This document shows positions 15,336 through 39,800 of a DNA stretch of 64,000 bases, in pieces; positions within the stretch are counted from its first letter, which is position 1, and every line of letters begins with the position of its first letter. Location of the stretch: assembly GCA_903813345.2 (NCBI GenBank), contig CAIIXF020000004.1, positions 30,383,986 to 30,447,985 of the forward strand, in the 5' to 3' direction. The stretch is from Owenia fusiformis. Taxonomy: Eukaryota > Annelida > Polychaeta > Sabellida > Oweniidae. The notes beneath the pieces are model-generated. The model saw only the letters and a program-made list of their open reading frames with translations, was not told the DNA's origin and ran no database searches. A program made the translations under genes and the position numbers.

Positions 15336-15339
15336 AGAT

Positions 15340-16742: not shown

Positions 16743-17531
16743 TGAAAATTAAGAGATTTTGAGACGTATGAAGCAGCCTATTAAGCATAGTGTAATTGTA
16801 ATTTCATGCTCTGACATATCATACCAGTGTATTCCTTCAGTCATACAATATTGTAATACCTTGAATCCTTGATGGATCAAGATGCTGATAAAACAGTTAA
16901 AGTCGTAGAAACCTTAGCAATAGCGAATGTGTTTGGTCCCTCTAATTAATATAATATGAATTTTGTTACAAGATAACTGTATTGAATTTTTCTATGTTGA
17001 TGTGTTTATGTTATATATCTACAATAAAATTTTTATATTTCAAAATTCCATACAGTAAGTCATCGGACATTTTGTAGACTAATAATATAACAGACTTCTG
17101 GTTTTGTTCCATACACAATTTAGATAAGGATTGTGAACTTTAGATTTTATGAAGAGAGTTATTTATATCTATATAATTACGTTTTGAGTTGGAGGAAATT
17201 TACTCAATATCACTTTGATGCCTCGGTCACCTGGCCATAAAAGGCATTTGCTTAATATGATATTCATTTTTTACAGGTTGTTTCCATTAACGGGGTGATA
17301 CAGGCATGTGAAGTGTTTGGCTATGCATGGACCTCAAGGATGACACGGGGTGGAAGAGGGGCAAGGGTTGGTGCAAGTCCCGGGATGCAAGTCTGCACTC
17401 TCAGACTCCAGATAGGAGTGAAACGCATCATGGGATTATTTGCATTCGTTGAACTTTACAGAAACAGTTGAATATAATTCAGAATTTAAGTGAATCCACA
17501 TGATCATTTGCGTTCAACAATGCGTTTATAG

Positions 17532-17736
17532 AGAGGTTTCGCAAGTTTTTAGCTCAACGTGTTGTGTTCACCAGATTTATTACCCTTTGCATTCGTTCGA
17601 CTTCACTTCTTAATTAAAAGAGAGCTTCATCTTCTGATAGTTTATTTCTAGGCTCTGCGCGTAGGGTACAGCTTAATGAGCAGCTAGTTCAAACTAAAAC
17701 GAGTTGAGGTTAATCCATTGTGCGAAACCTCTCTAA
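17532..17736. mobile_element. Short foldback MITE (GAGAGGTTTCGCA ends)
   Basis: Perfect 15-bp inverted ends TAGAGAGGTTTCGCA and TGCGAAACCTCTCTA bound about 205 bp, with TA at both borders. A weaker internal inverted pair (AGCTCAACGTG and CGAGTTGAG) adds to the stem. No coding capacity. Confidence 0.6.
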
Positions 17737-18095
17737 TACCAGAGGGGTTATTCATCAAGCTAAATGACCCCTCGGGGCGATATATATGTTATGTTACAGT
17801 TACATGTTACAGTTACATGTTAAATTGTTAAGACTTGAAAGTTAATAATTAAGTTTTTTTGCGTTATCTTTCAGATACTTATAATTAGTACACGTTGCTC
17901 TCTATGTTGGCGGTGATGACACGTTCTGCTTTCTTTTCAAGAAGCTGCAGTATAATCTTTAAATGTATTCAGTTTATTGGTTTTGCATGTTGCATACATA
18001 TTGATAAGTGTTTACATTCATAATTTAAAAAAAGCTTTGTTTTGATTTATTATTACTTACAAGATGGGAACAAACTTTTGTAGGGGATGTTACAG

Positions 18096-18264
18096 GCGGG
18101 CCCGTAGCCAGCTTTTGGCAAGGGGTTAGTTCGCTTTTTAAAAAAGGAGTGTCACATGTTGTCCCAAATTACTTGAAGATCACAAGACAAAGGGCATGAT
18201 TTTGAAAGAACTTTTGGTTGCTCGCATTTACTCAACCCCCCCCCCTCTTGGCTACGGGCCTGAG
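18096..18264. mobile_element. Foldback element with GGCCCGTAGCCAG ends
   Basis: Inverted ends CAGGCGGGCCCGTAGCCAGC and GGCTACGGGCCTG bound about 170 bp with a poly-C run near the right end. Related ends occur near 18715 and 21020, so it is a repeated family. Confidence 0.55.
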
Positions 18265-21200
18265 ACTACATGTACAGATGTTTATACAACATGATTGTAG
18301 ATAGAACGTTCATTATTTTAATAAGCCTAAGCTAAATACTTTGCTGTGCTTTATCAATTACGCTTCCAGTTTCGACCATTTATCTGTATTGATATTATAA
18401 GCAAATTGATGTATACTTGCTCCGTAAGGTTGGCAGATTGAAATGTTTTCATAGGCCTAGCTACCGCACCCCCTCCCCCATCACTAATGAAAAGAGATGG
18501 AAGAAGAAATGAGCTTTAAAATATGCTTTTTATTGTGAAGTAAAGGTGAAGTTTCTAGCTCAATTTTGAAGGAAATTGCATCGATTTTTGTAAAATTCAA
18601 AACATATCTTAAAAAAATATTTTGGCTTGCTAATCGCACCCCCACCCCATTCTGACTGAAAACCGAAATTTTAGGGGGCAATCGCATCCCCCCTGACTGA
18701 AAGTCGGCTACGCCCCTGTGTTTCCCTTTGTCCCCTTTCATTTATCTTCTGTAAACTTGTTTGAACAAATTAATACTAGTACTACAAAGATAACTTCATT
18801 CGAAACGCATGCAATTCACTCCAATTATATTTATTCATGTATTTGCATTAGTGAGGGAAAGGGATTTGATTATAAAATTGACGGTGGTTGCGAAGTTGTG
18901 ATTTGGGAGGGAGGGGTATACTATACTAAGGTGTTATAAGACCCAATAATTAATATAAACAACTAAGCGCCTTCCTGATTGCATCCTAGCTCATCCTGTC
19001 CACCAGTCTATCTCGATCGCATTTTATCAACGAATTTATAATTCCTGATTAAACTGACTCTTGATTTTAAAATAGGAATTCTAAATCTGTTACTAGTATT
19101 TAAAAGTTGGTGTCTAGTGTGATACTGGAAATTGGAATACTATATTTTGTATTACTATTGTATCTCGATCTATAGTATATAAATATGGATTTCTAGGTCT
19201 ACAGGCTGTCATTCCCACATGGGCTTCATTGAAACATACGACATTGCAAAGTTCATCCATTTCAAACAAGCCAGGAAAACAGATAACTAGTCTTGCATCA
19301 GGCCCCGCAAATGTCCGATTTTCTCTCGGGAAATACATACATATCAGAGACATATTTCATAGCCAGAGGGCAAAAATGTCAAAATCGATATAAAATCTAA
19401 AAAGGATAAAATGCCCCCCCCCCCGAATACGGTACCTAGGTAATTAAATCTAATATTTCATAGTTCCCGCATAATAATAAAACTTTCATTTACCGCTGTA
19501 TCGAAATTCACGTGATCCCTTATTGAAGTTTTACTAATAATTGGGTTTGATCATTTAATGCTGTTGGATAGAATATTAGGTGAAAAGAATCAAAATTTTA
19601 GCCCATGTCTGGGCGAATGGTATAAATTCATATAGTTCTGATTACAATGAGAATTCTAAAAAATTTCCTGTCATTTCCTTTACTCTACGTTTATAATCAC
19701 GTATCATGCTTATTAACTAGATCAATACAGACTCGATTTCCTTTGCCCACCATCAACATTGTTATGTAATGACGGGAAACAGTCACTGTAATCTTCTAAT
19801 CAGCCGTTTGTTTTTATTGTAATTAGGAAACTAGTCAATTTTGATTTCGTTTTGTTTCAATGAACGAAAAGCACATTAGTTCAGCATTTCAAGGAAGGGT
19901 GGGGGGGGGGGGGTGTAAACAATTACTGACTGTCAAGTACATGTATCTCTCACGAGGCCCTATTTCCCCAACCCTCCACTCATGCATACGCCTATCATAT
20001 GTTTGATAGGGAAATATATAACATTCCAACAGATACTGTCTGGACCTCCTACCCTTTTACACCGGGTCTCTTCTTGAACCCCTCCCATATTCTAATGTTT
20101 CTCGAAACTGCTCATGTAAACTTTGTAAGGCAATGCAGGGTTTGCTACGGGTGTGACTTGCAATGTATAACTTACTTGTACTTGTATAAGAAATAAAAAC
20201 AAATAAACAAACATATTTAACATAATTAATACGGTGATAAGCAACAAAACGTCAACATAAAATTTTGAAGTTTCAAAAACAGCCATGCACTACCCTGCAT
20301 TTTAGCTGAAATTAAGTTTATTCCAAATAACTTATGTAACGAAATGGAAATGATTCGAAAAATAACAATTCGATGAACATTTCACAATGAAGCAAACAAA
20401 ACCAGATAGTTAAGAATTATTCTAATTTAAACCGACCTGAAACCTCAACCCTAAAGACACTGGTGACATTTGAAAGACTAATTTCTTAATCTAATTTCAA
20501 CAAAACAAATCAAAACTTAAAAAGGTTGACGGTCGTTGTAGTTTATAGACCATGCTAACAAAGTTTAAACATTTTATTTACGGCTTATTTAAAACATGCA
20601 AACGGGTGATGTTAGGAAATATATTTAAAGTGTATTCATGCCTGCAATCATCGCTGGTAACACCTGAAAAACAACTTCTTAAAATACAAACATAATTCAC
20701 TGCACTGCTGTATACGTCTACCTGCTCTCAAATCTAATAATGAAACGAAAAAAATAATGCATGCCAAACTTTTATCTATTGTAATATTATCTATGGTTAT
20801 TTCAAAGTTTTACTCTTGCATCAAGCAACTGTGCCATTTCCCCAATACAATATGGGATAAACCTTTCAGGCCCACTGTCAGGATGTATCAAGAGAGTGAG
20901 TTCACTTTTAAAAAAATTCCAAGGGGTTCACTTTTGACAACTCTGACCAAAAAATGACCAAAACCATTTGAAAATTGCTCAAAATGGTGAAAACTCCGAC
21001 CCCCGGCCACTCCCTGGCTACGGTCCTGTCTTTAAGGGCTAACACTTTACTTGAGGCAAGATGCATAAACTTGAACTCCCTGGGCTATAACTTTAAGAAC
21101 GGCGTATTGTTCTTCAAACTGGACTTGAAATCTCAATTGTCACTGCTTGTGTGTCATACTCATTGGCACCTGCAAAACAGAATAATATAATAAGAATAAC

Positions 21201-21269
21201 ATCATGATGATATCAGATATCATATTTCATTTGGAGCCTTAAATATTAAACAAGGCATAAACATGAAAA

Positions 21270-21383
21270 ATGTCACCACCCGCCATTTGTTACAGACGCT
21301 GAACGCCGACCCCAGACGCTAAACACCGTACACAAAAAAGTTGGAGACTTTAACAATATGTGACCACTTTTGGTGGTGACATA
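21270..21383. mobile_element. Small foldback element (ATGTCACCACC ends)
   Basis: Inverted ends ATGTCACCACC and GGTGGTGACAT enclose about 110 bp, including two related GACGCTGAACGCCGACC and GACGCTAAACACCG blocks. Confidence 0.4.
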
Positions 21384-21789
21384 AAAAGGGGAAGTCCCGT
21401 CTAAATAAAACTCCTGGTTTCAAGTTTTTTGTAAACATACACCATTGCAACATACACCATTGCACCATTGCATGATGGTTGTCATGACCTGCAGGTCACG
21501 ATGACAAATGAATGTTACGTTGTCAATAGAATATAGCGTTTGACCATCTCTGATCATAAAAATGAGTTGATAGAAATTCAAGTAACATGTATCAAGTTCA
21601 TTTTATCACAGACTGCAACTATTGATTCCAAATCTGGTTCACTGAACGGCTCAATAATTAGAAGTAAAGCGTATTTTATAGAGTCAGTAGTCTGGTGGCA
21701 GTTTAGAAATCCCGCGTTCGAACACTTATAATACTCCTAGATCTTAATATAACAATACGGTTTTTGCAATACGTTGTTTTTATTCACCT

Positions 21790-21920
21790 GTAGACGCACC
21801 TGGTGATCGGAAAATATGAACGGATCGGAGGGGGTGGGGTTGGTGAAGATTTGTTGAATTTTCTATCAAAAATGGGCTGACCTCCCTCCTCCGTTCATTT
21901 TGTCCGATCGCTGGGCGTGA
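21790..21920. mobile_element. CACGCC-family foldback element, short copy
   Basis: Inverted ends (CGCACCTGGTGATCGG and CCGATCGCTGGGCG) enclose about 130 bp with GGATCGGAGGGGG and CCCTCCTCCGTTCATT arms. Same family as 58954-59847, 33130-34431 and the fragment at 47568-47640. Confidence 0.6.
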
Positions 21921-23304
21921 TAGATAATGTATTGAACGTTTTTATGTGTTTCTTATTGAACGAAATGTGTATTTTGGACTAATAATGTAATTCATAATAA
22001 ATACAAGTATTTCAAGAATTGCCATACTGCACGTAAAACGGGTAGCCGTAGCTTCTTCACTGATGTACGATATACTACATGTACTTAAAAAAGTTTTGTT
22101 GCGACTAATAAAACAGATCATCTTTAATGTAAAAATAACAGGTGCACACCATATAATCATTTTAGATACTGTATTTAGTGATATTATGAATCCCAAACAC
22201 AACGCATTAATTAAATGCATGTTTAAGTGTCAATTAGCCTATTAGAATGTTAGAATAAATATATTAAAACTATGAACAGATAATTCATTGATATGTATTT
22301 ATTCAACTCTAATGGGCTTTTTTCTTTGAACTGCTACATGGCTTTCGATTTACAGATTTACAGATTTCGAGCCATCAAAGTCAGATTAGGCGGAGCCCTT
22401 ATCCTCAATTAAAAAATAATATTGGTAAGGAAGTCGGACATGTTTGATACAATTTCTCATCTCTTTTCTGCTTTTAAAATAACCGACTTGAATCACAATT
22501 TGTGTACGATCATTGCATCAGATCTGAAAATATCAATATTGTACTCACTGGTTTTGTGATCGAAAGGTAGTTTTTTCGTATAAAAAATATATGAGTTATA
22601 GATTATATAATTTGTGTGTTTTTTATGAAAAATAACATGCTCCCCGCAGGTGACAAATATTTCGACCACAGCCGTGATACTGTTTTATTTAACTCCTATT
22701 TGAAAACAGATTGCGGAGAGACTGAATTGTTCATTTTCTTTTAAAAAATATACGACTGAAAACTTATTTCGTCAAATTTTGGCCCTTGCTATCCCCCAAG
22801 CCCCCGGATACATTCCAATATAAAAATAAATTAACACCATCAAATCTTTTTATTCCAAAATACATTTCGACGATGAATATTAATATTATACGTTTTTAAT
22901 CATAACCTAAATTATAGTTTGTAAAATTAGTAGCAGGTGTGAATATTTATATTATGTATGCATGTCAAAATGGCTAATACATGCTCTCGTGTTTATGTTC
23001 ATGTGATATAAAGTGTAAATAAATTAGACAATAACTGAATACCAGTGTCTTGTTTTAGTTACAAAACAAATGTTCAAGCTTCATTATCAAACAGATTTAA
23101 AATACTAGAGTTCTGCTTAAACGCAACAACTGATTAGGACAAAAACTGAAAAACAATATGGCTATCTTTAAATTAAATTAAAAATAGATTGTGTCATGCA
23201 AGACTCGCCATTTGAATAATTTACAAAATGAATTCAGCCTTCAGGAATCATGCGGGATTTATGCACAAGGTAGCTTCTCAAATAATTACACATTTTTTTT
23301 ATTA

Positions 23305-23945
23305 AATTTTCGATTTCATTTGGTACGCCTGTGCGCATTTGGCGTAATATATGCGACACGCCAATGATAACTGTTAAAACAAAAACATGCACATCAATTT
23401 CCGTTTAAATCCTGTACGAATCCTGAAGGCTGGATTCATTTGTAAACTATATTATATATGAATCCTGCTTGGATCCTGGCTACAGGATTTATTTGCAAAC
23501 TACCTTCTATATGAATCCTGTATGAATCCTGAAGGCTGGATTCATTTGTAAACTATATTGCATATGAATCCTGTATGGTTCCTGAAGGCTGGATTCATTT
23601 GTAAACTATATTGCATATGAATCCTGTATGATTCCTGAAGGCTGGATTCATTTGTAAACTATATTGCATATGAATCCTGTATGATTCCTGAAGGCAGGAT
23701 TCATTTGTAAACTATATTGCATATGAATCCTGTATGATTCCTGGAGGCTGGATTCATTTGTAAACTATATTGCATATGAATCCTGTATGATTCCTGAAGG
23801 CAGGATTCATTTGTAAACTATTTAAACAGCGAATCCTGTATGAATCCTAGAGGCAGGATTCATACAGGATTCATATGTGCATATGAATCCTGTATGAATC
23901 CTGGCTCCAGGATTCAGTGGTTTGATTCACATTTTTTGCTGTGAA
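23305..23945 (-). repeat. 53-bp satellite and flanks, inverted copy 2
   Basis: Reverse complement of 14711-15335, including both flanks. Ten or so 53-bp units with TGAATCCTGTATGATTCCTG and GGATTCATTTGTAAACTATA. It marks the inner border of the inverted second copy of the locus. Confidence 0.85.
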
Positions 23946-24118
23946 TGTATTAAACTAAATCAGAATATCGCTTTATTAGTTTGTTTATTGTTGAGACTTT
24001 TTGAACGCCGCATCAATGACGATTTAAATCCAGATTCGTCTTTAACGTTTGGGCGCGACCTTCCAATACACCGGGTGTTGGCTCAATTTTGGCAATTCTT
24101 AGAAATGCGTCGGTAATC

Positions 24119-24634
24119 TTAAGCTGCGTCGTTATCATTAGCCGTTAGGTTAAAGGCAGCCGGGGATGGTGTAAGTTTGACTTGAATATCTATGTTATTC
24201 AACAAATATTTTTCAATCTTAAAGATGTCAGCGTGCAATGGACCCGCCATTTTAACCTCCAAACTCTCGATCGGGTGTGCCATTCTCCTTAGGAATCTAT
24301 TATTTTTGGAGTCAAACCCGTTATGGTCATTACCTAGACTGGCTTCATCCTTAAAATACATTTGGGATGATAAGTAACCTTGCATATATGCCGCTGATGT
24401 GTTTAGTACTGTTTGAATATAACTTGTGTACGGGTAATAAGGTCCCGATGTTGAAATTGATTTTTGCTGCATTTGAACATCCACTTGTGAGAATAATGAA
24501 TGTAACCAAAGATTAGCGCAAGTAACTTTGGGTGCAGATGCCGCCGGGTCGTTTGGATCTAAAGGCAATGGACTCCCATCCGGCATGGTTATTTTTGCCT
24601 TGACGAATAACACTGTTTTACTCAAATCTAAGTA
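24119..24634 (-). pseudogene. Major capsid protein fragment, second Polinton copy
   Basis: The minus-strand frame matches about residues 60-230 of the capsid protein at 8289-9614 with few differences (for example ANLWLHSLFSQVDVQM and SGPYYPYTSYIQTVL). It is separated from the start of the gene (36304-36474) by element X. A fossil. Confidence 0.85.
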
Positions 24635-25964
24635 ACAGGATCTTAAGAGGTTCTGGACAAATCATTTGATTCTGGACTTGTCATATTTTTTTTTCAACGA
24701 AATCACATCCAAGGGTTGAATTTTTATTAGCTATTTAGAGAGTGAGTCCTGCCTAGTATTAATTTCAATAAAAAAGTTAAAATAGAACCCTATTTGAGAG
24801 TCAATCTAATACATTACATTGATAAATTAAGGCAAATCCTGAAATATTTTTAAAGTGCATTTTTTATGAAATATTATCCAGCAAGTATTTAAATGAAACG
24901 GTCTTATTTAAATACAAATCATAACATGATATTTTTCATGAAACATTTTTCAATGAAATTCAATTGAAGGGCCAAGATAAAACGAGCTAATTTAGGTGAA
25001 AACCCTTACATGATGATGTGTTTTCATAACTTCTTTCATAAAATTCCATCAAGGGGTGAAGATAAAATGATCGAATTTAAGTGAATTAAGGATCACGAGA
25101 ATATGTTTTCTTTGATATTTTCTATGAAATCCCATCCAATGGTCAAGGTAAAATTTTGATTTTGATTTTGATTTGGTCACGTGTTCGAAAGATCCATATA
25201 AGGCCCATAGAACCATATAGGAACGTCATTTTGAATGTCACGTGATAGATCCATATAAGGCTTTTAGAACCATTTATGGAAAGATGAGGGGAAGCCCCTG
25301 ACACCTGTTTCACGATTTTTATGCACTTCATTATTGTACCGAAGTTTGCCGATTCGATTCGTCGTATTTCGGAATCCTGGTGTCAATTTTATACTCCATT
25401 GGAGTATTTTTGACCTACTTCTTATGACGGAAATTCCCGAACCTTGTTCGGATTAATCCGGATTTTCTGACCTACCTTATCTACCGAGATTTCACGAGTT
25501 AACATTCGTCTCATTCCGGAATCCTGGTGACAATTTTATACTCCATTGGAGTATTTTTGATCTACTTTTTCTGGATTTTGCCCTACTTATTATATCTTGA
25601 CAACAAGCAAATCAAAAAGTTTGACATGAACGGGTCTCGATCAACTAACCTAGACTATGGAAGCCAGGCACGCTAACCATTAGGCCAACGAGCTACCGAT
25701 ATGAAAGAACAAAAGTATTATATATTTATACCGAGCGTCAATTCAAAATGATCCTCACTTTTGTCTCCACTTAAATACGACTCGTCAGTTGTATCCAGAA
25801 TAGTAGAACGCCTATGGCGCTAGTGAATAACCAAGTCCCAGGTGAGTGGTTCGTATCCCTCCGTGATATACTATTTTTGTTTTATTAAATACGACAGAAA
25901 GGAGCAAGGTGTAGGTTGAAAACAAGACGTTCGTTTGTTTCAAAACAGTTTGGAAACATTAATA
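24635..25964 (+). repeat. Element X left inverted end
   Basis: About 1330 bp matching the reverse complement of 34966-36297. It contains repeated ACTCCATTGGAGTATTTTTGA blocks (near 25390 and 25540), a tRNA-like stretch and a CACGTG-containing pair GTCACGTG near 25175 and 25237. Confidence 0.9.
25637..25706 (-). other. tRNA-like sequence in the left end of element X
   Basis: On the minus strand GTTGGCCTAATGGTTAGCGT resembles a tRNA D-arm and A box. An anticodon-like arm CTGGCTTCCATAGTCTAG (TCC) and a B-box-like TTGATCGAGACCC follow. The acceptor halves do not pair, so this is a tRNA-derived relic or internal polymerase III promoter rather than a working tRNA. The same stretch lies on the plus strand at 35229-35300. 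Confidence 0.5.
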
Positions 25965-26070
25965 GTACAATAACGTCATTTCTAAGGGCGATATAGTGAA
26001 ATATTGGACCAAGGGCCGAAGGCCCAAGGTCCAATATTTCACTATATCGCTCGCAGAAATGACGTTATTA
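25965..26070. repeat. Perfect hairpin inside element X
   Basis: AATAACGTCATTTCT..GCGATATAGTGAAATATTGG is followed after GGGCCGAAGGCCC by its reverse complement, giving a stem of about 45 bp with almost no loop (25971-26070). No function is known. Confidence 0.7.
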
Positions 26071-27281
26071 GTATTATTACCACCGTTAACGACCAGGACT
26101 GAAACAGCAAGAAAATCTTACGCATTGAACGTTATCTAATTTCCCGGGGAAAATTGCCGGTCCAGAATATATTCTAGACCGGTCCATATGGACCACCACT
26201 ATGACGTCACACATTTCTCAGGTCGATATAGTAAAATAAACGCCTTCTAAACTAGCACTAAAACCCCTAGAACTGGCCCGGCAAGGTGGTAATAATCTCT
26301 GATAATTTAAGATTTTCCACTCCTGAAGGGCCTCTAGATCTATGAAATTCAATAATCCACTCAGTAAAAATACGATTTCTCTGCAACCTGATGTCCAATC
26401 AAGATCATTCAAATATATATGTGTTCCTGACACGTTTGGGCGTCCGGGAATAAAATTGCTTGTGAAAACTATTTACAAAAGTGTTCCAGAGACCCTTATC
26501 TACTTGGATAAGGTTTTATTTGAAGATACATTGCCTTATTAGCAGGTAGAGGGGCATACAGAAAACAGAAGCAAATGCTATGTTGAAAATTTTCTATATT
26601 TCAATTTGAACCTGTGTTTACATGTCACGTAGGCCAGTGTTTTATATGGGGATTATATGTACTTTCCTTGTTTACATGAACGTAAATCATTACATGAAAT
26701 CTGCATTCTTCTGGGTTTAATCTGGGTTTGTATTGTCTTATTGGGGCTTTTCGACTTTAAAACAAACCCTACCTAAATGGATTGTGTCTCGGGAACGTTT
26801 TTGTAAATAGTTATTATAAACAATTCTGAAAGAATATCACATATTTTTGTCTTCCCGATTTCAGTCATGAATTACGTCAATTTCTCGTGCTAACATTGGG
26901 TAGACGTTGTCATAACCGGATGCCCGAACGTGTCAGGAACATATAGATACTCGAATGATGTTGATTGAACATCAGGGTTGAGAGAAATCGTAATTTTACT
27001 GAGTGGCTTCACGAAAAAATAAGCAGCACTTTAGGCCACCTAAATACAACTCGTCAGTTGTATCCAGTTGGAATCCAAGCGTAATGTTTTTAATTATATG
27101 GTTGTGCTTTGATTTTACGCTGAAAATATTTATAACTACGTCAACTTTATATTAAAACATTTATTATCTTTTCAGTTGTATTAAAATGTAAAATATGATA
27201 TATGTCAGCTTATTGCTTTCTGGAGAACAGTCAAGGTTTAAATTTGGTACAATGAATCGGACACTCATGTAAATCGACATG
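26071..27281. other. Element X interior, left of element P
   Basis: About 1.2 kb. Two inverted related segments lie at 26349-26500 and 26775-27010 (shared ACTCAGTAAAA, TTCCTGACACGTT and CATCCGG-type blocks). A 66-codon frame at 26342-26542 falls on one of them but does not look constrained. CAACTCGTCAGTTGTATCCAG near 27050 repeats a block of the terminal repeats. Confidence 0.5.
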
Positions 27282-27317
27282 GTTATAAGTAGTGAAGAGT
27301 GAACATTTATATAACAA

Positions 27318-27367
27318 TGACATAGTGACATAGTATGATATAGTGACATAGCAACCATGACATAGTT
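27318..27367 (+). repeat. TGACATAG repeats near the left end of element P
   Basis: Four exact copies and one variant of TGACATAG lie within 80 bp of the terminus and recur mirrored at 31783-31832. Short direct repeats close to the ends are typical of binding sites for a terminal protein or recombinase (inference). Confidence 0.6.
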
Positions 27368-27369
27368 AC

Positions 27370-27500
27370 GCATGGTCTGATTGGTTAAATTTCCCGCTGC
27401 AATCTGATTGGTAAAATGATGTCACGTGACTCCAGCCTGTTAATGATTAATTAGTGATAACCCGTTGCTGAGCAATTTTATAAGGCTTATATAATACTCA
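27370..27500 (+). promoter_or_regulatory. Promoter of the left-arm gene of element P
   Basis: Two ATTGG motifs (CTGATTGGTTAAAT and CTGATTGGTAAAAT), GATGTCACGTGAC with CACGTG at 27423-27428, and a TATA box TATATAAT at 27488-27495 lie ahead of the gene at 27662. The same motifs in the same order occur in the Polinton-1 end, where the TATA box has the identical sequence. The block TTCCCGCTGCAATCTGATTG recurs downstream of the gene at 28515. Confidence 0.5.
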
Positions 27501-27661
27501 TCAGTACAAATACAAAGTTTACATTGTAGTATTTACTTAAACAACAAATCTATTATTTCACGATCACCTGATAAGATATTCATATACTGGACGTTTGTAA
27601 GGATACTATATTTACACCTTTAAAGAACAGGCTTAACTACAGGAGATATTTTAAAAAGATT

Positions 27662-28351
27662 ATGGAAATTTTTCATTTGAAACCTCAAGATGTCAGTAAA
27701 GTCGGGGGGACCATAGTAAAACCATTAGAAACTGGCCTTCCAAGAATGTTAAAGTTAGCCGTAGGACCGCATCGTCAACAAACAATTCTCTTCCCAACAG
27801 TTGACCATGTATTTATGAAAACGTACGATGTGCTTGATGTACAGTCGAAACATGATGGATCACTACAAGTACCATTTGAACCGCAATCATCCGATCCATG
27901 TGCTGGAAGGATAACAAGACAGGAATTTGACTATTTCATAGAATGCTGTCAAGAGAACGGTTGTATATTTTCAAAGGACAACAGAAATTCTTCAAAATAT
28001 GAACAACAAGCCCTATATACATATGGTTTAGACCACTGGCAACACTTAGGCAGAGGATATGAATTTACGATTTCCAGCAACTACAAAACGTTAGAAATCG
28101 TGTCTAATAGGTTCAATGAAGAGAAGGAGATTTACGAAGTAAACTGGAGTCTGTGTTTAACATTTCAACAAATACACGACTTATTAGATAATATATGGCT
28201 CATCATGGAGCCTTTGACACTGGCCGAGAAAAACTGCCTAGCTACTTTACATGACGATCATCTGAATCAAATGGGCACATGGTCATGCAACAACGTTTGC
28301 CAATTCATGAACCGCAGGACAGTTTTTGATAAAGCACTTAATGACCAATAA
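27662..28351 (+). CDS. Unrecognised 229-residue protein, left arm of element P
   Basis: A single-exon frame starting MEIFHLKPQDVSKVGG. It has a Cys-rich FIECCQENGC near residue 95, a segment YEVNWSLCLTFQQIHDLL near residue 160 and WSCNNVCQFMNRR near the end. It lacks a signal peptide, membrane span and obvious enzyme motif. An AATAAA at about 28410 follows the stop. The mirrored copy at 30801-31487 differs by one residue in length, which together with the good promoter and poly-A signal argues for a real, recently maintained gene. Possible roles (DNA-binding, host interaction) are guesses. I do not recognise a family. Confidence 0.7.
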   Translation: MEIFHLKPQDVSKVGGTIVKPLETGLPRMLKLAVGPHRQQTILFPTVDHVFMKTYDVLDVQSKHDGSLQVPFEPQSSDPCAGRITRQEFDYFIECCQENGCIFSKDNRNSSKYEQQALYTYGLDHWQHLGRGYEFTISSNYKTLEIVSNRFNEEKEIYEVNWSLCLTFQQIHDLLDNIWLIMEPLTLAEKNCLATLHDDHLNQMGTWSCNNVCQFMNRRTVFDKALNDQ

Positions 28352-28514
28352 CACTATGCTTGCTGTCATTTTTGTATCAGACAATAGACATGTTTATTAG
28401 AATATTATTTGAATAAACATACATATGTAATAACGACAATTGCAGTCATCTCCGTTTAAATTCCTAAATCAAACCTTTACACCATGACACCAATAGTAAT
28501 ACCAATACTTGAAT

Positions 28515-28560
28515 TTCCCGCTGCAATCTGACTGGTCAAATGATGTCACGTGACTCCAGA
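28515..28560 (+). repeat. Second copy of the promoter block, downstream of the left-arm gene
   Basis: TTCCCGCTGCAATCTGACTG..AAATGATGTCACGTGACTCC repeats 27390-27434 with two or three changes, in the same orientation, so the gene is bracketed by two copies. The mirror of this block lies near 30598-30645. Confidence 0.65.
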
Positions 28561-28599
28561 CATTTACCTACATTTTAACTCAAGATTCTTAACAGTTAG

Positions 28600-30570
28600 T
28601 TAACCATATCGAGTAAATGACTTACTCAAATGAGTAACTTAATTGTGTAAATGAGCTACCCAATTGAATAATGAACAAACTCAATTGAGTGAATGGATAC
28701 CTCAGTTGAGTAAATTTGTAACTCAATTAAGCAAATGAGTTAATCTATTGAGTATATAAGTCACTCAAATTAGTAAATGGGTAACTAAATTGAAAAATCG
28801 ATCAAATGAGTAACACAATAATGTAAATGAGTAACTCAATAGAGTCAATGAGTAAGACAATTAAGTAAATGAGTAACTCCACTGAGTAAATGAGTAACTC
28901 AGTAGAGTAAACGAGTAACTCAATTGAGTAAATAAGAAACTCAGTTGAGTAAATTAGTAACTCAATTGAGTAAATGAGCAACTTAATTGATGTATTGAGT
29001 TACTCAATTAAATGAGTCCATTAGTGACTCAAATAAAAATAAATTACTTAATGGAATGAGTAAATGGCTAACTGGGATGAGTAAATGAGTAACTCAAATG
29101 AGTAATTGAGTGCTGGATTATCAAATTTGGCTGATGCATTTATTCAATCGAGTGACTCATTTACACAATCGAGTTACTCATTACTCAATCTAGTGACTCA
29201 TTTACTCAATCGAGTTACTCAATTTACTCATCCGAGCAAGTCAATTACTCATTCTCTCAATTTTACTCACCAATGACTCAATTATTCAAATGAGTTACCG
29301 ATTTACTCATTAGAGTTACTCATTTACTCAATTGAGTTACTCATTTTACTCATTCGAGTAAAAATTATAATGGATAACTGCGCTTGTGCGGAAAAAAAAG
29401 ACAAATAATTTGGCCCCCCCCCCCCTTGCCCAAAAACTGTTTGCTCCCATATGACACAAATGTTCACTTAACTAATAAGATATTTAAAATGCATTAAGAT
29501 GACATTAGATGACTATGACATTAGCAAGATGGTCAATTACTCATTCACTCAATTTACTCACCAATGGCGCATTTATTCAAATGAGTTACTCATTTATTCA
29601 ATCGAGTTACTCATTTACTCAATTGAGTTACTTAATTGACCCATTCGAGTAAGTCAATTACTCATTCACTAAATTTGACTCGCCAATGACTCATTTATTC
29701 AAATGAGTTACCAATTTACTCATTAGAGATACTCATTCACTCAATTGAGTTACTCATTTACTCAATTGAGTTAATCCTCTAGCCCAGTTATCCATTATAA
29801 TTTTTACTCGAATGAGTAAAATGAGTAACTCAATTGAGTAAATGAGTAACTCTAATGAGTGAATCGGTAACTCATTTGAATAATTGAGTCATTGGTGAGT
29901 AAAATTGAGAGAATGAGTAATTGACTTGCTCGGATGAGTAAATTGAGTAACTCGATTGAGTAAATGAGTCACTAGATTGAGTAATGAGTAACTCGATTGT
30001 GTAAATGAGTCACTCGATTGAATAAATGCATCAGCCAAATTTGATAATCCAGCACTCAATTACTCATTTGAGTTACTCATTAACTCATCCCAGTTAGCCA
30101 TTTACTCATTCCATAAAGTAATTTATTTTTATTTGAGTCACTAATGGACTCATTTAATTGAGTAACTCAATACATCAATTAAGTTGCTCATTTACTCAAT
30201 TGAGTTACTAATTTACTCAACTGAGTTTCTTAGTTACTCGTTTACTCTACTGAGTTACTCATTTACTCAGTGGAGTTACTCATTTACTTAATTGTCTTAC
30301 TCATTGACTCTATTGAGTTACTCATTTACATTATTGTGTTACTCATTTGATCGATTTTTCAATTTAGTTACCCATTTACTAATTTGAGTGACTTATATAC
30401 TCAATAGATTAACTCATTTGCTTAATTGAGTTACAAATTTACTCAACTGAGGTATCCATTCACTCAATTGAGTTTGTTCATTATTCAATAGGGTAGCTCA
30501 TTTACACAATTAAGTTACTCATTTGAGTAAGTCATTTACTCGATATGGTTAACTAACTGTTAAGAATCTT
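28600..30570. repeat. Tandem array with ACTCAATTGAGT core, centre of element P
   Basis: About 90 imperfect units of roughly 21-22 bp such as GAGTAAATGAGTAACTCAATT fill both inner arms and part of the spacer. Units switch orientation near 29120 and again near 29800 and 30040. The core ACTCAATTGAGT is itself palindromic, so the array can fold at unit scale as well as arm scale. A poly-C run and a short unique part lie at about 29390-29530. Confidence 0.85.
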
Positions 30571-30800
30571 GAGTTAAAATGTAGGTAAATGTCTGGAGTC
30601 ACGTGACATCATTTGACCAGTCAGATTGCAGCGGGAAATTCAAGTATTGGTATTACTATTGGTGTCATGGTGTAAAGGTTTGATTTAGGAATTTAAACGG
30701 AGATGATTGCAATTGTCGTTATTACATATGTATGTTTATTCAAATAATATTCTAATAAATATGTCTATTGTCTGATACAAAAATGACAGCAAGCATAGTG

Positions 30801-31487
30801 TTATTGGTCATTAAGTGCTTTATCAAAAACTGTCCTGCGGTTCATGAATTGGCAAACGTTGCATGACCATGTGCCCATTTGATTCAGATGATCGTCATGT
30901 AAAGTAGCTAGGCAGTTTTTCTCGGCCAGTGTCAAAGGCTCCATGATGAGCCATATATTATCTAATAAGTCGTGTATTTGTTGAAATGTTAAACACAGAC
31001 TCCAGTTTACTTCGTAAATCTCCTTCTCTTCATTGAACCTATTAGACACGATTTCTAACGTTTTGTAGTTGCTGGAAATCGTAAATTCATATCCTCTGCC
31101 TAAGTGTTGCCAGTGGTCTAAACCATATGTATATAGGGCTTGTTGTTCATATTTTGAAGAATTTCTGTTGTCCTTTGAAAATATACAACCGTTCTCTTGA
31201 CAGCATTCTATGAAATAGTCAAATTCCTGTCTTGTTATCCTTCCAGCACATGGATCGGATGATTGCGGTTCAAATGGTACTTGTAGTGATCCATCATGTT
31301 TCGACTGTACATCAAGCACATCGTACGTTTTCATAAATACATGGTCAACTGTTGGGAAGAGAATTGTTTGTTGACGATGCGGTCCTACGGCTAACTTTAA
31401 CATTCTTGGAAGGCCAGTTTCTAATGGTTTTACTATGGTCCCCCCGACTTTACTGACATCTTGAGGTTTCAAATGAAAAATTTCCAT
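30801..31487 (-). CDS. Unrecognised 228-residue protein, right arm of element P
   Basis: Mirror copy of the gene at 27662-28351, one codon shorter (a single Asn instead of two in the WSCN..VCQF segment) and otherwise the same in the translations compared. Promoter motifs (TATA at about 31654-31661, CACGTG at about 31721-31726) lie upstream on the minus strand. The two genes face each other across the repeat array. Near-identity means recent duplication or ongoing gene conversion between arms. Confidence 0.7.
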   Translation of the reverse strand: MEIFHLKPQDVSKVGGTIVKPLETGLPRMLKLAVGPHRQQTILFPTVDHVFMKTYDVLDVQSKHDGSLQVPFEPQSSDPCAGRITRQEFDYFIECCQENGCIFSKDNRNSSKYEQQALYTYGLDHWQHLGRGYEFTISSNYKTLEIVSNRFNEEKEIYEVNWSLCLTFQQIHDLLDNIWLIMEPLTLAEKNCLATLHDDHLNQMGTWSCNVCQFMNRRTVFDKALNDQ

Positions 31488-31861
31488 AATCTTTTTAAAA
31501 TATCTCCTGTAGTTAAGCCTGTTCTTTATAGGTGTAAATATAGTATCCTTACAAACGTCCAGTATATGAATATCTTATCAGGTGATCGTGAAATAATAGA
31601 TTTGTTGTTTAAGTAAATACTACAATGTAAACTTTGTATTTGTACTGATGAGTATTATATAAGCCTTATAAAATTGCTCAGCAACGGGTTATCACTAATT
31701 AATCATTAACAGGCTGGAGTCACGTGACATCATTTTACCAATCAGATTGCAGCGGGAAATTTAACCAATCAGACCATGCGTAACTATGTCATGGTTGCTA
31801 TGTCACTATATCATACTATGTCACTATGTCATTGTTATATAAATGTTCACTCTTCACTACT

Positions 31862-33129
31862 GTTATAACATTGAACTCAATGCAGTAAATTAGTTATTTC
31901 TATGAATCACAGCGGGATTGGTTTCATTTTATATGATTGCCAACTCTGGCGTTTTTTTTGTAAATGCTTTTGACCGCTGTAAATGTGAAACTGATACAGT
32001 ATTATTCAATTGTTTTATGTCTTGGTCACATTTGCTCCGATTTTCACTACGGCGCCCGGCCGATTGAGTATTGTGTTCAGAAATGTATTCAATTTTGAAC
32101 AAAATACTCGCAGCAAATGTGATCCAGGCATTACACAGCGGTATTTCGAACATACTATTGTTGCTTAACCACGACCTAGCCAATTTTAAAATCATACTCC
32201 TTATTTAAATCCAAGTAAACGATCAATGTCTAGGTATTTGGCGTTTGATGATACTATGGCCCTTGGCGAATTATGATTAGATGAAGCGAGGTCAACATTA
32301 ATGTTTCTTGTACAAGGTCATCCCAAGGTCTAAGATAAATATTTAGGTATTTTACGTTTCAAGACCTTTGGACAAATTCGATTCAACGATGTATTAAAGT
32401 TAAAATGTATACAGAGATAAAATAGGTTATCTCCTATCGTTTCCTTGTGTATACGTTTATGTCTCTGCGTAATAACGCAGATGCGAGCAGGTAGTTACCA
32501 ATCTCACCACAAGGTGGCTCGTTCGGGTCAGATAGCATGGCGGGTATGGTAGAAAGTTCCCTTTAACTTAAAGTACATCTGTTTTCGTGGTTCAATTTTC
32601 ATATCACCCTTAAAATGTATCTAATAGCAATGCAATTAAAATATGTCCAGTGAACGAAAATGCAATACAAGAATAGATATTTCACTTTTTGTGATTTTGT
32701 AACAATGGGGTTATTTTTTGTATATGTAACATGGTCATTTTCACATTTTATATTATTACTGTTCATATTAATCAATCCCTATTCATCTCAATATAACAGG
32801 TCCCTAAGTAGGTTGTTTGCAGTTTTACTCTTTTAATACCATGTTCACTTTTCACCTTGAGTTATTCAACTATGCAAACTGTGTCAGTTTTATATATCTA
32901 TTGTTCCCCTATATGGTCTTTCTCACTCACATGTAGCTGAGTTTGCATTGGGTGTTGGCTTGTCAGTAGTTGCTGTAAGAGTTCATGTTGTACATTACAG
33001 AGCATTGTATTTTAAACATTGAAGTTTGAAATATACTATTTTATATATATTTTAATTTGAAGTTCGAGTTATTTTATTGCCACCCACGGGCCTTCCACAC
33101 GCCCATTTACATATAACAATTTGAAACAA
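31862..33129. other. Element X interior, right of element P
   Basis: No gene is seen. At 32015-32135 lies a copy of the small GC-rich foldback element found again at 33905-34053 (GCGCCCGGCCGATTGAGT, TTCAATTTTGAACAAAATAC). At 32468-32705 lies dispersed repeat R2, matching 3515-3745. Confidence 0.5.
32468..32705. repeat. Dispersed repeat R2, copy 2
   Basis: Same orientation match to 3515-3745, including GGTGGCTCGTTCGGG and AGAAAGTTCCCTTTAACTTA. Confidence 0.7.
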
Positions 33130-33165
33130 CTTTAAAAAGTGAGCAATGTCAGTGTTGTGATAATA

Positions 33166-34100
33166 AAGAATTTTCGTTATGAGTTGTTTCAAAAACTTAT
33201 ACGTATACTTATACTTTAAAGGGTCTTGTCGAACTAAAATCAATTCAAATTGATTTTCATAATCTGTACCAAGTGGGGCATAACTATTCCCGATATAGTC
33301 AAGCTTCATCATCAACTAGGGACTGCGAATACAATGTCCTTTGCTAGTGTCAATTATGAACACGATAAACTAAATTCTAGTTGACGGGTCCTTGTAGTGT
33401 ACGATAAACAAGACCCTTTAAAGTGAATCACTACACGAACGAGTCGATCATTTCAAAGTTCTCATGAAATTATAAGGTCAATTTTTAAGTTTTTACGTAT
33501 AAAAGGGCCTTTATACGCAGATTATAAACTTACAGAGTTGGATCTCCGCATAGTATATGTGTGGACCTACTGACCAGAATGGCTTATTAAAATTAATCGG
33601 CTGAATAGGCATAGTATCCAATCAAATAGCTCGACTCATTCATTAGCTGAACTAATTCTCCCTTCGTTATTTCTACAAGGTGATTCAAAACGATCATCTA
33701 CAAAAATATATTTGAGAGTAGATAAATCTGTAAAACCCGTGTGCTATATCAGCCTATTTGATTCTAGAAAACACATATGACACAACTAAACATGCTTTAC
33801 ATCAAGGGGGTACGGATGGTATGCCATTGGCCCTTTTTATTACCGTCCTAGGAGATATTTCCCGACGAATTAGGATATTATGAAACACCTTGTTTATTGG
33901 GTTTATAATGCCTGGGTCACATATGCACCGATCCATCGGCCGGCGCCCGGCCGATTGAGTGTTTTGTTCAATATTGTATTCAATTTTGAACAAAATACTC
34001 AATCGGCCGGGCGCCGTAGCGAAAATCGGAGCAAATGTGACCAAGGCATTAGTATAAGTATACGTATAAGTTTTTAAAAAACTTATAACGAAAATTCTCT
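33166..34100. mobile_element. Non-autonomous TIR transposon, 935 bp
   Basis: Inverted ends AGAATTTTCGTTATGAGTT and AACTTATAACGAAAATTCTCT extend with differences through ACTTATACGTATACTTATAC. AATA is duplicated at the borders (33162-33165 and 34101-34104), and the intact neighbour of this site is seen in the family member at 59670. No transposase frame. It contains the nested foldback at 33905-34053. Confidence 0.65.
33905..34053. mobile_element. GC-rich mini foldback element
   Basis: About 150 bp with inverted ends AATGCCTGGGTCACAT and ATGTGACCAAGGCATT, and inner arms GGCGCCCGGCCGATTGAGT and ACTCAATCGGCCGGGCGCCG. A partial copy lies at 32015-32135. Confidence 0.6.
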
Positions 34101-34183
34101 AATAACGCCCCTCATACCTATTTATTACAGGTCGTGTAGACCATTGTTGCCTGATTTATAGCAAAAACATTGACTTTTGCACG

Positions 34184-34184
34184 T

Positions 34185-34219
<35 letters not shown>
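34184..34219 (+). repeat. (GAT)n microsatellite
   Basis: About twelve tandem GAT triplets. Confidence 0.95.
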
Positions 34220-34439
34220 CGCCTTTTATAATAGATCTCATATCTTAGAAGCGTATCAGTTCAAAAAATACTAGAAGACCTTACATATTTTGCCATGCAC
34301 TGCGCCTATTCATTTGGCAATTCAGTTGTAAATTTTATCTTGAAAAAAATAAATCTTCCAAATTTGTTGAGTTTTCTTGCAGAAATCGCCTACCCCCCCC
34401 CCCCTCCATCCATTTTGTATGATCACAAGGCGTGATTTA

Positions 34440-34965
34440 AGCTGCTGATATTCTTCTTTAAACGAGTCGGATTTTCAAAATCTATAAGTTGGACTCCCTT
34501 TATAGAAGCTTTGAACTGAATTTGCACTGCTTAATGCTGAAATTTTATTGTTTATCCATACATTTTAAGAAAAAATGTATAAAAAAAGATGTTAAAGCCA
34601 AATGTTGCCCTAAAAATTCAGAAAATGTAAAAAATTTCGAATTTTCTATGTACAGGCCTTGTTGCCCCTTTAAGAAGCTTAATATGTAAATTATCTAATC
34701 AAACACTTCGTCCACCATTTTGAAACACTAATCAATCCAATCTGTGCTAGCGATTCATAGGGCGAGCCAGTGGGATATTTCCAGGGTTCATACACACCTG
34801 GAAATGTCAGGGAAATTGACTTGATTTTCCAAGTGCTGGAAATGTCAGGTAATTTTAAAATTAGGTCAAAAGGGCCAAAGATGACCGGGAATTTTGAAAC
34901 GGTAGACATGTCAGGGAAATGTCAGGGAAATTTGTATCAGTGTTGAAAAAATAATGTTCCAGAGA
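34440..34965. other. Element X interior before the right end
   Basis: No gene. From 34780 to 34935 several AATGTCAGGGAAATT-type blocks repeat with spacing of 20-60 bp. Confidence 0.45.
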
Positions 34966-36297
34966 TTAATGTTTCCAAACTGTTTTGAAACAAACTAACG
35001 TCTTGTTTTCAACCTACACCTTGCTCCTTTCTGTCGTATTTAATAAAACAAAAATAGTATATCACGGAGGGATACGAACCACTCACCTGGGACTTGGTTA
35101 TTCACTAGCGCCATAGGCGTTCTACTATTCTGGATACAACTGACGAGTCGTATTTAAGTGGAGACAAAAGTGAGGATCATTTTGAATTGACGCTCGGTAT
35201 AAATATATAATACTTTTGTTCTTTCATATCGGTAGCTCGTTGGCCTCATGGTTAGCGTGCCTGGCTTCCATAGTCTAGGTTAGTTGATCGAGACCCGTTC
35301 ATGTCGAACTTTTTGATTTGCTTGTTGTCAAGATATAATAAGTAGGGCAAAATCCAGAAAAAGTAGATCAAAAATACTCCAATGGAGTATAAAATTGTCA
35401 CCAGGATTCCGGAATGAGACGAATGTTAACTCGTGAAATCTCGGTAGATAAAGTAGGTCAGAAAATCCGGATTAATCCGAACAAGGTTCGGGAATTTCCG
35501 TCATAAGAAGTAGGTCAAAAATACTCCAATGGAGTATAAAATTGTCACCAGGATTCCGAAATACGACGAATCGAATCGGCAAACTTCGGTACAATAATGA
35601 AGTGCATAAAAATCGTGAAACAGGTGTCAGGGGCTTCCCTCATCTTTCCATAAATGGTTCTAAAAGCCTTATATGGATCTATCACGTGACATTCAAAATG
35701 ACGTTCCTATATGGTTCTATGGGCCTTATATGGATCTTTCGAACACGTGACCAAATCAAAATCAAAATCAAAATTTTACCTTGACCATTGGATGGGATTT
35801 CATAGAAAATATCAAAGAAAACATATTCTCGTGATCCTTAAATCACTTAAATTCGATCATTTTATCTTCACCCCTTGATGGAATTTTATGAAAGAAGTTA
35901 TGAAAACACATCATCATGTAAGGGTTTTCACCTAAATTAGCTCGTTTTATCTTGACCCTTCAATTGAATTTCATTGAAAAATGTTTCATGAAAAATATCA
36001 TGTTATGATTTGTATTTAAATAAGACCGTTTCATTTAAATACTTGCTGGATAATATTTCATTAAAAAACGCACTTTAAAAATATTTCAGGATTTGCCTTA
36101 ATTTATCAATGTAATGTAAGTATTAGATTGACTCTCAAATAGGGTTCTATTTTAACTTTTTTATTGAAACTAATACTAGGCAGGACTCACTCTCTAAATA
36201 GCTAATAAAAATTCAACCCTTGGATGTGATTTCGTTGAAAAAAAAATATGACAAGTCCAGAATCAAATGATTTGTCCAGAACCTCTTAAGATCCTGT
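34966..36297 (-). repeat. Element X right inverted end
   Basis: Reverse complement of 24635-25964 with only a few differences, for example one base in the tRNA-like stretch and one triplet near 36115. Confidence 0.9.
35229..35300 (+). other. tRNA-like sequence in the right end of element X
   Basis: Plus-strand partner of 25637-25706: GTTGGCCTCATGGTTAGCGT, then CTGGCTTCCATAGTCTAG, then TTGATCGAGACCC. Cloverleaf closure fails at the acceptor stem. Confidence 0.5.
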
Positions 36298-36303
36298 TAA
36301 GTA

Positions 36304-36474
36304 GTGATCTCCGTTATTTGTTATATCGAAGGTTAATGGATTACCATCGGATAAATTGACCGGTCTAAAATTGACGTATTTCAACTGTTTCGTGCTGACA
36401 TCCGTGTCGCGAGATTCGAAAATCATAAACTGCTCGTTCACAACCTCGCTAGAACTGTCCATAATGTTATCCAT
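36304..36474 (-). pseudogene. Major capsid protein N-terminal fragment, second Polinton copy
   Basis: The minus strand reads the start of the capsid protein (MDNIMDSSSEVVNEQFMIF and so on, about 57 residues, nearly as at 8289). It ends where element X entered. The upstream spacer GGGAAAACAGATAAAACAAA matches 8250-8285. Confidence 0.85.
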
Positions 36475-36841
36475 TTTTATTTATTTGTTTTTGTTTTATC
36501 TGTTTTCCCCTTTTAATCAAATATTTTTTATTTATTTTTATTTTTTTATTCAAGTTCTCATTTAATAAATTTCAAGTACAATATATAAAAGAGTACAAAT
36601 ATAATTTTATTTGTAATTTCACAAAAGTTTTATATGTAGAAATATGTACTATAAGTTTAAATAGATATAATTTTACATGATCTTACAACTTGAACTTCAT
36701 TCATACCCATTCAAATTCATTCATTCATGCATTCTCCCACTCACACGTTGACTTTTTCATTGGTATATCTCTTCAATTAGAGTCCTAATGGACCATTTAT
36801 TTTTATCAAACGAAACAGAAAATGTGGTGTTTAAAAAAAGT

Positions 36842-39800
36842 CTAGAAAAGTCTATATAGTGCATTTACATCAATACCCCTTTGATCTAGGTGCTTAATGC
36901 TGTCTAGATACACTCTTAGATAATTGATGAATTTGAAAAAGTAAGGTATTTCACTTTCTAAAAATGATTTGTATAAAATATATTTCACAATCAGTATACA
37001 TAAGTTAAGCTCATTGACTTTCTCTTCGTTCCGGATGATACCTAATAAAATATTATTTTCAGTAACTTTTGATTCTTTATTTACTTTTTGATTCCACCAT
37101 TCAATAAATTGTTTCCATATATCTTTTGTTATTCTACAGTTCACGAGCATGTGCTTCATGGTATGGGTTTCATCACACCATGGGCATTTGTCTGTCTGTG
37201 TAATGTTCATCATTTTTAACTTATTGTTGCATATTAATGTATTTGTCAATATTTTGTACTGGAAACTCCAAATTTTTGTTTCATATGTTACCTTTTTGGC
37301 AAGTGTATAATAGTATTTCATTTCTGTTTCCTTTACATCATTTTCTTGGATCCATTTTCTCAAAGATGTAGGTTTTTCTACCTCTTTTTCAAGGATTTTG
37401 TTATATATTGTTTTACATGTCAATTGACTGGGAAGCAGTAATGTTTTAATTGTGCATTTGTTTTTCAATCTGTTATTTTTAAGATTTTTCCATGTTTTGG
37501 GAATAGCGCTAAGTATACTCGCATATTTCAAAAAGTCTATATGAATGCTAAATTTTTGTTCCAGTTCTGTCTTAGATAAGAAGTTGTCATTTCTGTCTAA
37601 GATATCATGAATTTTAACAATACCTGCTTGATGCCATTTCTTGAAGTACAGCATTTTATTATTGACTAAAATATTTTTATTATTCCATATGATTTCATTT
37701 TCAACATCATCCCAATTATTAACATCATGATGAGTTACTTCTGCCCATGTTTCTAGCATTGTCAAATAAAATTTAGGAATTTCATTATAGTTTTGAAAAT
37801 ACTTTATATGGTAGTTACACTTAGTGAGAAACTCAATTCCACCATGTTGTTTAATGAATAAATTTGGAATTTCTTTCCAGGATGATTGTTCTTTGTCTAT
37901 CAATCGTTTTATCCAAGTGCATTTTAGGGATCTATCCATTATGATATAATCTTTCATTTTTAATCCGCCTTGTTCAATTTCAGCAATAATTGATTTTCTC
38001 TTTACTTTTGGTGGTTTCTTTTTCCAAACAAATTCAAAAATTGCTTTGTTTATTTCTTGTAAAATCTGGGGTGGTATGTGCATAACTGAACTTACATATG
38101 TTAACTGAGAAATACCTAAAGATTTGATAATTTGAATTCTGCCTATTATTGTTAAATTTCTCAAGTTCCATAATCTTATTTTATTTTTCATTTCTTCAAT
38201 TTTCTTTGCGATGTTCAATTTTGATCTATCATCTGCATCATAGGTAAATGTTATTCCTAGAGCTTTTACACCAGTTTTTGATTTGATTCCATTTATATCT
38301 TGCTGTTTTTCCCGATCCCTTCCTATCCACATTATTTCAGTCTTTTCTTTGTTAATTTCTAGACCAGAACATTTTCCAAATTTTTCAACTAAATTTAAAG
38401 CATTATTTGTTGACTCCTGATCATTCAAAAATATGGTAGTGTCATCAGCATACTGACAAAGTTTGACTTCACATTCATCTTTAATTGGAATTCCTTTTAT
38501 GTTTTGATCAGCTCTTATAGCAATACTTAATAATTCAGCAACAAGTATGAAAATTACACCAGAGAGTGGGTCGCCTTGGCGAACTCCCCTTTCCAATTGG
38601 AACCATTCAGATGTGAAGCCATTATTTATAACACTCTGTGGTTTTGCATATATAGCTCTGACATAATTTATTAGTGTTTCCCCAAAATTAAATTTTTCTA
38701 ATGTGTTTATCATAAACTTCCAGTCAATACTATCAAATGCTTTCTTATAGTCAATTAAAAGAAGAAGACCTTGAATGTTGTTCGTTTTTGTATAATCTAG
38801 CATATCATATATAAGTCTAATACTTTGTCCTATATATCTATTTTTCACATACCCAACTTGATCATTATGTATTAATTTTGGTAAAATATCTCTGAGACGT
38901 TCACTTATAGTTTTTGTACATATTTTATAGTCCACGTTTAACAGAGTTAGTGGTCGCCAATTTGTTAGATGTTGCCTATTTTTACCTTTTTTTGGAATAA
39001 GAGATATGATGCCTCTATTTTGAGATATGGAGAGTTCTCCTTTAATAAGTGAATAGTTAAAACTGTCAGTCATTTCTATTTTAATATCTTCCCAAAATGT
39101 GCAATAGAATTCAGCTGTCAGCCCATCTGTGCCAGGAGTTTTGTTCTTTTTGAAAGTTTTTAATGATTTAAAGCATTCCTCCCATGTAATTCTCTTATCG
39201 CAAATTTCCTTGTCTGTATTATTGATTGTTGGAATTTCATTTTGTAGAAATATATTAGAATATTCACCATCAGGATCATTGTTCTTTTTACTGTATAAAT
39301 CTTTGTAAAATTCTTTTTCTGTTTTTAATACTTGTTCAGGGTCATTAATTAATATACCACGATTATCATAAATAGAATGTATTACCTTATTTGAGTAATT
39401 GTGTTTTTCTAAATTGAGAAAATATTTGCTTGAACGTTCACCATACTCACACCACCTTGCTTTGGATCTCATGATGCTACTTTGTGTTTTTCTATCCTGT
39501 ATTAGTTCTACTTTAAGTTTGCATGCATTATATTTGTTAAGTGTGTCAGTGTTATTATTTTGGTCAAGCGCAACTTGAGCTTCATTTAAGTCTTTCAGTG
39601 CTCTTTCATCTTCTAGTCTGGATTCTTTTGATTTTGTCTTACTATATTTTTGACATACTGCTCTAATATCTGTTTTTATAAGATCCCATTTTAATCCCAA
39701 ATCTTGAATCTCTCTGTGTTTTTCCTTAGAATTTGTAATCTCTTCTTGAATTAGCTTTTTATATTCTTTATCATTATCCCATTGCGAATTATATTTCCAA

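Follow-up and report, generated by a model that had tools for sequence, protein, structure and literature searches.

In vertebrate Mavericks, the commonest termini are 5'-(AGT)2//(ACT)2-3' with perfect 6-bp target duplications, and intact copies are 12,723-24,620 bp long, with eight (or seven) conserved open reading frames (ORFs) and terminal inverted repeats (TIRs) of 46-1,447 bp, according to PMC8097293. Here we describe an element at positions 27288-31861 of a 64,000-nucleotide stretch of the genome of the annelid Owenia fusiformis (contig CAIIXF020000004.1; hereafter the window). The element, an interrupted palindrome, shares with vertebrate Mavericks the (AGT)2//(ACT)2 ends, the 6-bp duplication and the inverted terminal repeats. 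However, it is 4,574 bp long and carries one unrelated gene twice, and its arms of 2081-2097 bp lie outside the Maverick range, making it nearly all TIR. By the criteria checked, the palindrome itself is not a Polinton/Maverick; it is a real, well-delimited gene-bearing element with Polinton ends. We consider it probable that it represents a non-autonomous palindromic satellite of Polintons/Mavericks in Owenia, which a Polinton integrase inserted in trans and which was born by fold-back copying of one end of a larger element.

Several other described systems resemble the palindrome in part. Protein-primed replicators give rise to palindromic defective genomes, such as adenovirus incomplete particles and derivatives of the yeast linear plasmid pGKL1, in which one terminus is mirrored and both ends are replication starts. 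Published text on adenovirus incomplete particles associates them with the left end, and a literature search on palindromic pGKL1 derivatives did not confirm the plasmid case. These defective palindromes are extrachromosomal, whereas the Owenia palindrome is chromosomal with a clean target duplication. As in virophage or satellite-helper pairs, a small element would rely on the proteins of a larger virus-like element; unlike in those pairs, the palindrome has no capsid or replication gene, and no helper for it was identified in the window. Very long inverted repeats with short internal repeats, as in the palindrome, are found in FB elements and have been described for Galileo and for Tm1 (PMC3169594). 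Our literature searches found no paper naming non-autonomous or palindromic Polintons and none joining Maverick, Polinton and Owenia, and among the matches listed for Polinton with palindrom*, no title describes such an element.

The palindrome is composed of two mirror arms around a 396-bp centre. Aligned over 2081 columns, the arms differ by 8 substitutions (0.38%), one 3-base indel and one 13-base indel. The element begins with AGTAGT and closes with ACTACT, and the perfect 6-bp duplication GTTATA flanks it on both sides. The mirror symmetry breaks off exactly at the AGTAGT ends, and the flanks outside the two duplications are different. From outside to inside, each arm contains the end, a 58-bp cassette, a TATA-like core, the gene, AATAAA, a second cassette and a 21-bp repeat array. 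The features are as follows.

27282-27287, no strand: target duplication GTTATA, left copy
27288-29384, forward strand: left arm, 2097 bp, beginning with AGTAGT
27385-27442, forward strand: outer 58-bp cassette of the left arm
27479-27507, forward strand: putative core promoter-like stretch (TATAAGG at 27479, TATATAA at 27488, TCAGTAC at 27501)
27662-28351, forward strand: gene for the 229-residue protein, left arm
28412-28417, forward strand: AATAAA downstream of the left gene
28509-28566, forward strand: inner 58-bp cassette of the left arm
28628-29359, forward strand: 21-bp array of the left arm, with unit orientation flipping between 29111 and 29137
29385-29780, no strand: centre between the arms, 396 bp
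29781-31861, reverse strand: right arm, 2081 bp, closing with ACTACT
29806-30524, reverse strand: 21-bp array of the right arm
30586-30643, reverse strand: inner 58-bp cassette of the right arm
30735-30740, reverse strand: AATAAA downstream of the right gene
30801-31487, reverse strand: gene for the 228-residue protein, right arm
31707-31764, reverse strand: outer 58-bp cassette of the right arm
31862-31867, no strand: target duplication GTTATA, right copy

The 58-bp cassette holds TTTCCCGC, ATTGG and GTCACGTGAC, which resemble E2F, CCAAT and E-box sites, and its inner copy is 90% identical to the outer one. The array unit consists of TGAGT/ACTCA half-sites. A 411-nt strand of the array is strongly self-folding, at -61 kcal/mol compared with a shuffle mean of -27.6 (z = -9.2), and none of 100 dinucleotide shuffles was as good. 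The 396-bp centre, which is not an arm palindrome but contains another segment of the array (about 29532-29773), also folds on itself (z = -4.6; 0 of 100 shuffles). Chance is excluded as the origin of these features of the palindrome.

The gene is intact in both arms, with 229 codons in the left and 228 in the right, a difference arising because the in-frame 3-base indel falls within the gene. By comparison, when the outer 1313 bp of the left arm were resampled 2000 times with a second-order Markov model, the longest ATG-started ORF to arise had 146 codons. TATA-like boxes and AATAAA occur in each arm as well, and the start context of the gene looks strong. The boundaries and arms of about 2.1 kb given in the original prediction, made from the letters of this DNA, prove exact, and its AGTAGT ends, GTTATA duplication, one unrecognised protein of 228 or 229 residues per arm and central foldback array are all present. 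It had also given each gene its own promoter and AATAAA; the latter stands, while the promoter is a sequence resemblance only.

Polintons/Mavericks are recognised by (AGT)2//(ACT)2 or (AG)3//(CT)3 ends and a perfect 6-bp duplication; the palindrome displays the former type of end and the duplication. The window contains 9 AGTAGT and 13 ACTACT hexamers, which form 32 pairs 0.3-25 kb apart, and identical flanking 6-mers occur in 2 of the 32, namely those of the palindrome and of a neighbouring Polinton-like element (element A, listed below). For comparison, 472 of 609,214 pairs of other complementary hexamers have a 6-bp duplication, pairs within inverted repeats not being independent of one another. 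Element A ends 13 kb from the palindrome and possesses an integrase, like ends and a 6-bp duplication of its own.

The genes that define a Polinton were searched for in the palindrome. Apart from the two gene copies, it contains no ATG-started ORF of at least 150 residues, and thus none big enough for an integrase, a polymerase or a major capsid protein. A retrovirus-like integrase gene was not found in the ORF list, and the gene copies gave no Pfam match above the cut-off; the 4.6 kb hold no ORF of the size of a protein-primed DNA polymerase B; and genes for capsid, protease and packaging ATPase were not found in the ORF list or by Pfam. Nine proteins or protein pieces of element A gave no tblastn match to the palindrome at E 0.01, and the best DNA match between the two elements (E 0.12) is not significant. 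Having no integrase, the palindrome has to borrow one if it is mobile. Polinton ends and a duplication in an element without integrase, alongside an integrase-bearing element of like ends in the same genome, are the combination expected of a non-autonomous element mobilised by a Polinton integrase, and the palindrome and element A show it. The original prediction had started from 6-bp duplications as a property of Polintons, which is what is reported for vertebrate Mavericks (PMC8097293), and the mobilisation by a Polinton integrase that it proposed gains support, as far as sequence can tell, from the Maverick ends, the duplication and the nearby element A.

We then examined the protein encoded in the arms. 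Its closest match, with 97% identity, is a 228-residue Owenia fusiformis protein whose 90%-identity cluster has 6 member sequences. Two more clusters (1 and 3 members) of 255-residue proteins are 36-37% identical, and both are named Owenia. These cluster searches, which detect only relatives with short exact words in common, returned 2 of 29 candidates at E <= 0.01 and 3 of 1051 at E <= 1. A histidine- and cysteine-rich C-terminal stretch is conserved between the arm protein and its full-length relatives, and no relative outside Owenia was found in protein cluster, viral-contig or genome-contig searches. The original prediction had named many copies as a supporting result; a multi-copy gene is supported only at the protein level, through the six-member cluster, and the window contains one copy.

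The profile and structure searches that had been proposed for the protein matched no well-known host or element family. Pfam, PHROGs and PDB sequence searches yielded nothing above the cut-off or at a useful E-value. Half of a RanBP zinc ribbon was matched at E 0.027 and 0.031 (14 bits, against a cut-off of 27), and this resemblance is a weak hint. Two AlphaFold models have mean predicted local distance difference test (pLDDT) scores of 39.9 and 40.8 and are unusable; Foldseek with the first gave 450 matches at E <= 10, the best at 0.16 and none at E <= 0.001. The strand and helix order of the first model (pLDDT 39.9) had suggested a PC4-like or PUR-like single-strand-DNA-binding fold. This candidate was dropped, as the order is absent from the second model and neither Foldseek nor the searches of Pfam, PHROGs and PDB sequences bear it out. 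Viral contigs searched with the gene, its alignment and the terminal 24-mer gave no useful match; nor did phage records searched by DNA, or Rfam across 24000-37000. Among genome contigs searched with the gene alignment, 85 stretches fit the pattern and 0 were confirmed. A DNA-related role for the protein is a guess from its setting.

We propose a mechanistic model for the origin of the palindrome. A displaced strand of a larger element, bearing one terminus, an accessory gene and a self-folding array, would have folded back and primed its own copying, a step with moderate support. Such copying would place the same terminus and gene at both ends, with the arms copied from each other and the loop left unpaired at the centre. 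Fold-back is suggested because the ends and the gene are alike, the symmetry halts at the 396-bp centre and the inner part of each arm is a self-folding array; no clear priming point was discerned by eye. Since the same terminus at both ends would provide a start site at each end, copying by the helper's polymerase and insertion could continue. In the best-supported step of the model, a Polinton integrase acting in trans would have recognised the (AGT)2 ends and put a linear double-stranded copy into element B, the inverted-repeat element that encloses the palindrome. Speculatively, retention of the gene might mean that its protein aids either the element itself or the helper, possibly through an action on DNA.

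Several observations weigh against this model. No parent element sharing both the terminus and the gene of the palindrome was found within the window, which also contains a single copy of the palindrome. The element A ORFs that were tested, and the 8 tested of the 21 ORFs of 70 or more residues at 14-24.6 kb, yielded no recognisable polymerase. The 0.38% divergence of the arms also fits gene conversion, which keeps arms alike. The unusable structure models of the arm protein count on the same side.

A more far-reaching possibility, which we advance only tentatively, is that the palindrome, after arising by fold-back copying of one terminus, became a self-sustaining chromosomal satellite of a virus-like element of animals, copied and inserted by its helper, keeping a lineage-specific gene in both arms for competition or replication and amplified as a family. 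It would then be the heritable counterpart of a defective interfering genome. To our knowledge, DNA copying by Polintons in animals has been inferred from their genes and never observed. A mirror-image satellite is a by-product that protein-primed ends, strand displacement and fold-back could leave. If further copies and the parent were found, such palindromes would record Polinton copying in chromosomes and would provide a small two-ended substrate for testing the dependence on integrase and polymerase. The duplicated orphan gene is also a candidate Polinton accessory gene.

Alternatively, the palindrome might belong to an independent lineage that is normally self-complementary, is copied through a hairpin or dimer of its own and borrows the Polinton integrase, with the 229-residue protein serving its own replication or maintenance. 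The intact gene in both arms, the symmetry reaching almost to the centre, the diverged second lineage of full-length proteins and the restriction of all relatives found to Owenia are consistent with such a lineage. However, Pfam, PHROGs and PDB sequence searches recognised no replication domain in the protein, and a second palindromic copy was not seen in the window. We consider this alternative unlikely.

Still less probable is a foldback-type DNA transposon of the FB, Galileo or Tm1 kind, moved by a cut-and-paste transposase, with each arm holding a passenger gene. Like Tm1 and Foldback elements as described in PMC3169594, the palindrome has long inverted repeats with many short repeats inside them. 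But the duplication here is 6 bp, compared with mostly 9 bp for Tm1 in the same paper, the ends are the Maverick motif, and the palindrome has no transposase.

Chimeric or fold-back long reads, in which one arm is joined to a reverse-complemented copy of itself, do occur in long-read libraries. Such an assembly artefact is very improbable here: the symmetry ends at AGTAGT with both duplications next to it and differing flanks beyond, the arms differ at 8 sites and by two indels, and the 396-bp centre is no arm palindrome. Another transposon superfamily with an AGTAGT start by coincidence is scarcely credible, since IS3EU and GingerRoot, although usually making 6-bp duplications, have TA..TA termini (GingerRoot occasionally TG..CA) according to PMC10045372, compared with AGTAGT..ACTACT here.

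The palindrome and its neighbours share a motif. This motif, GTCACGTG, has 16 matches over the two strands, at 12 places in the window, compared with 0.56 expected, an enrichment based on few independent cases because mirrored repeats double the counts. Four places are in the palindrome (27421, 28545, 30598 and 31719), two in the TIRs of element A (5491 and 13870) and four in the TIRs of element B (25176, 25237, 35683 and 35744). Thus 10 of the 12 fall within arms or TIRs, and the three elements concerned show no significant DNA similarity among themselves; the others are at 4445, within a segment (4393-4511) similar to the element A TIR, and at 54945. This E-box-like motif may serve the three elements as a shared control or origin site.

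The neighbouring elements and the genes of element A are as follows.

5369-13999, forward strand: element A, Polinton-like, 8.6 kb, with AGTAGT ends, target duplication TACTCC and 771-bp TIRs
6110-7273: element A integrase (Pfam rve, E 1.8e-08)
8289-9614: element A F54H12.2-like protein, 441 residues (435 of 4536 candidates at E <= 1e-5; no Pfam match)
9599-10150: element A adenovirus-type protease (Peptidase_C5, E 6.8e-05, 23.1 bits against a cut-off of 21.3)
10337-11008: element A ORF with a P-loop seen by eye (no Pfam match)
24635-36297, no strand: element B, 11.7-kb inverted-repeat element, with ends ACAGGATC, 1.33-kb TIRs and target duplication TAAGTA

F54H12.2-like proteins, a widespread kind, are Polinton capsid proteins; viral contigs searched with this protein and its alignment gave no useful match. 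The protease frame of element A is interrupted by an in-frame TGA at 9878-9880, and one of its two pieces matched Peptidase_C5 while the second matched nothing.

Element B encloses the palindrome, without which it is 7.1 kb long, and outside the palindrome none of its ATG-started ORFs reaches 150 residues. A second, broken Polinton copy on the minus strand is represented by fragments matching element A at 42297-41236, 36524-36298 and 24634-24030. Element B sits between the last two of these, inserted in the F54H12.2-like gene, and the uninterrupted site of this insertion is visible in the copy of the gene in element A. Substitution rates between arms or TIRs are 0.38% (8 substitutions) for the palindrome, 0.68% (9) for element B and 0.78% (6) for element A; these small counts fit a later arrival of the palindrome inside element B.

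Other repeats and genes were noted in the window. A 288-bp piece of the element B TIR recurs at 51684-51971, adjoining a run of N. The stretch 14711-23949 is bounded by inverted ends of about 570-600 bp made of 53-bp tandem repeats and appears to interrupt the broken Polinton; exact matching around the two ends revealed no target duplication. Between fragments of the broken Polinton, 36842-40552 holds an intact 1236-codon ORF that by eye looks like the endonuclease/reverse transcriptase of a long interspersed nuclear element (LINE). Finally, a complex tandem repeat of about 493 bp, itself containing internal copies, occupies 52806-54091, and the 347-codon ORF at 56583-57626 matches DUF3419 (E 2.8e-27) and is possibly a host gene.

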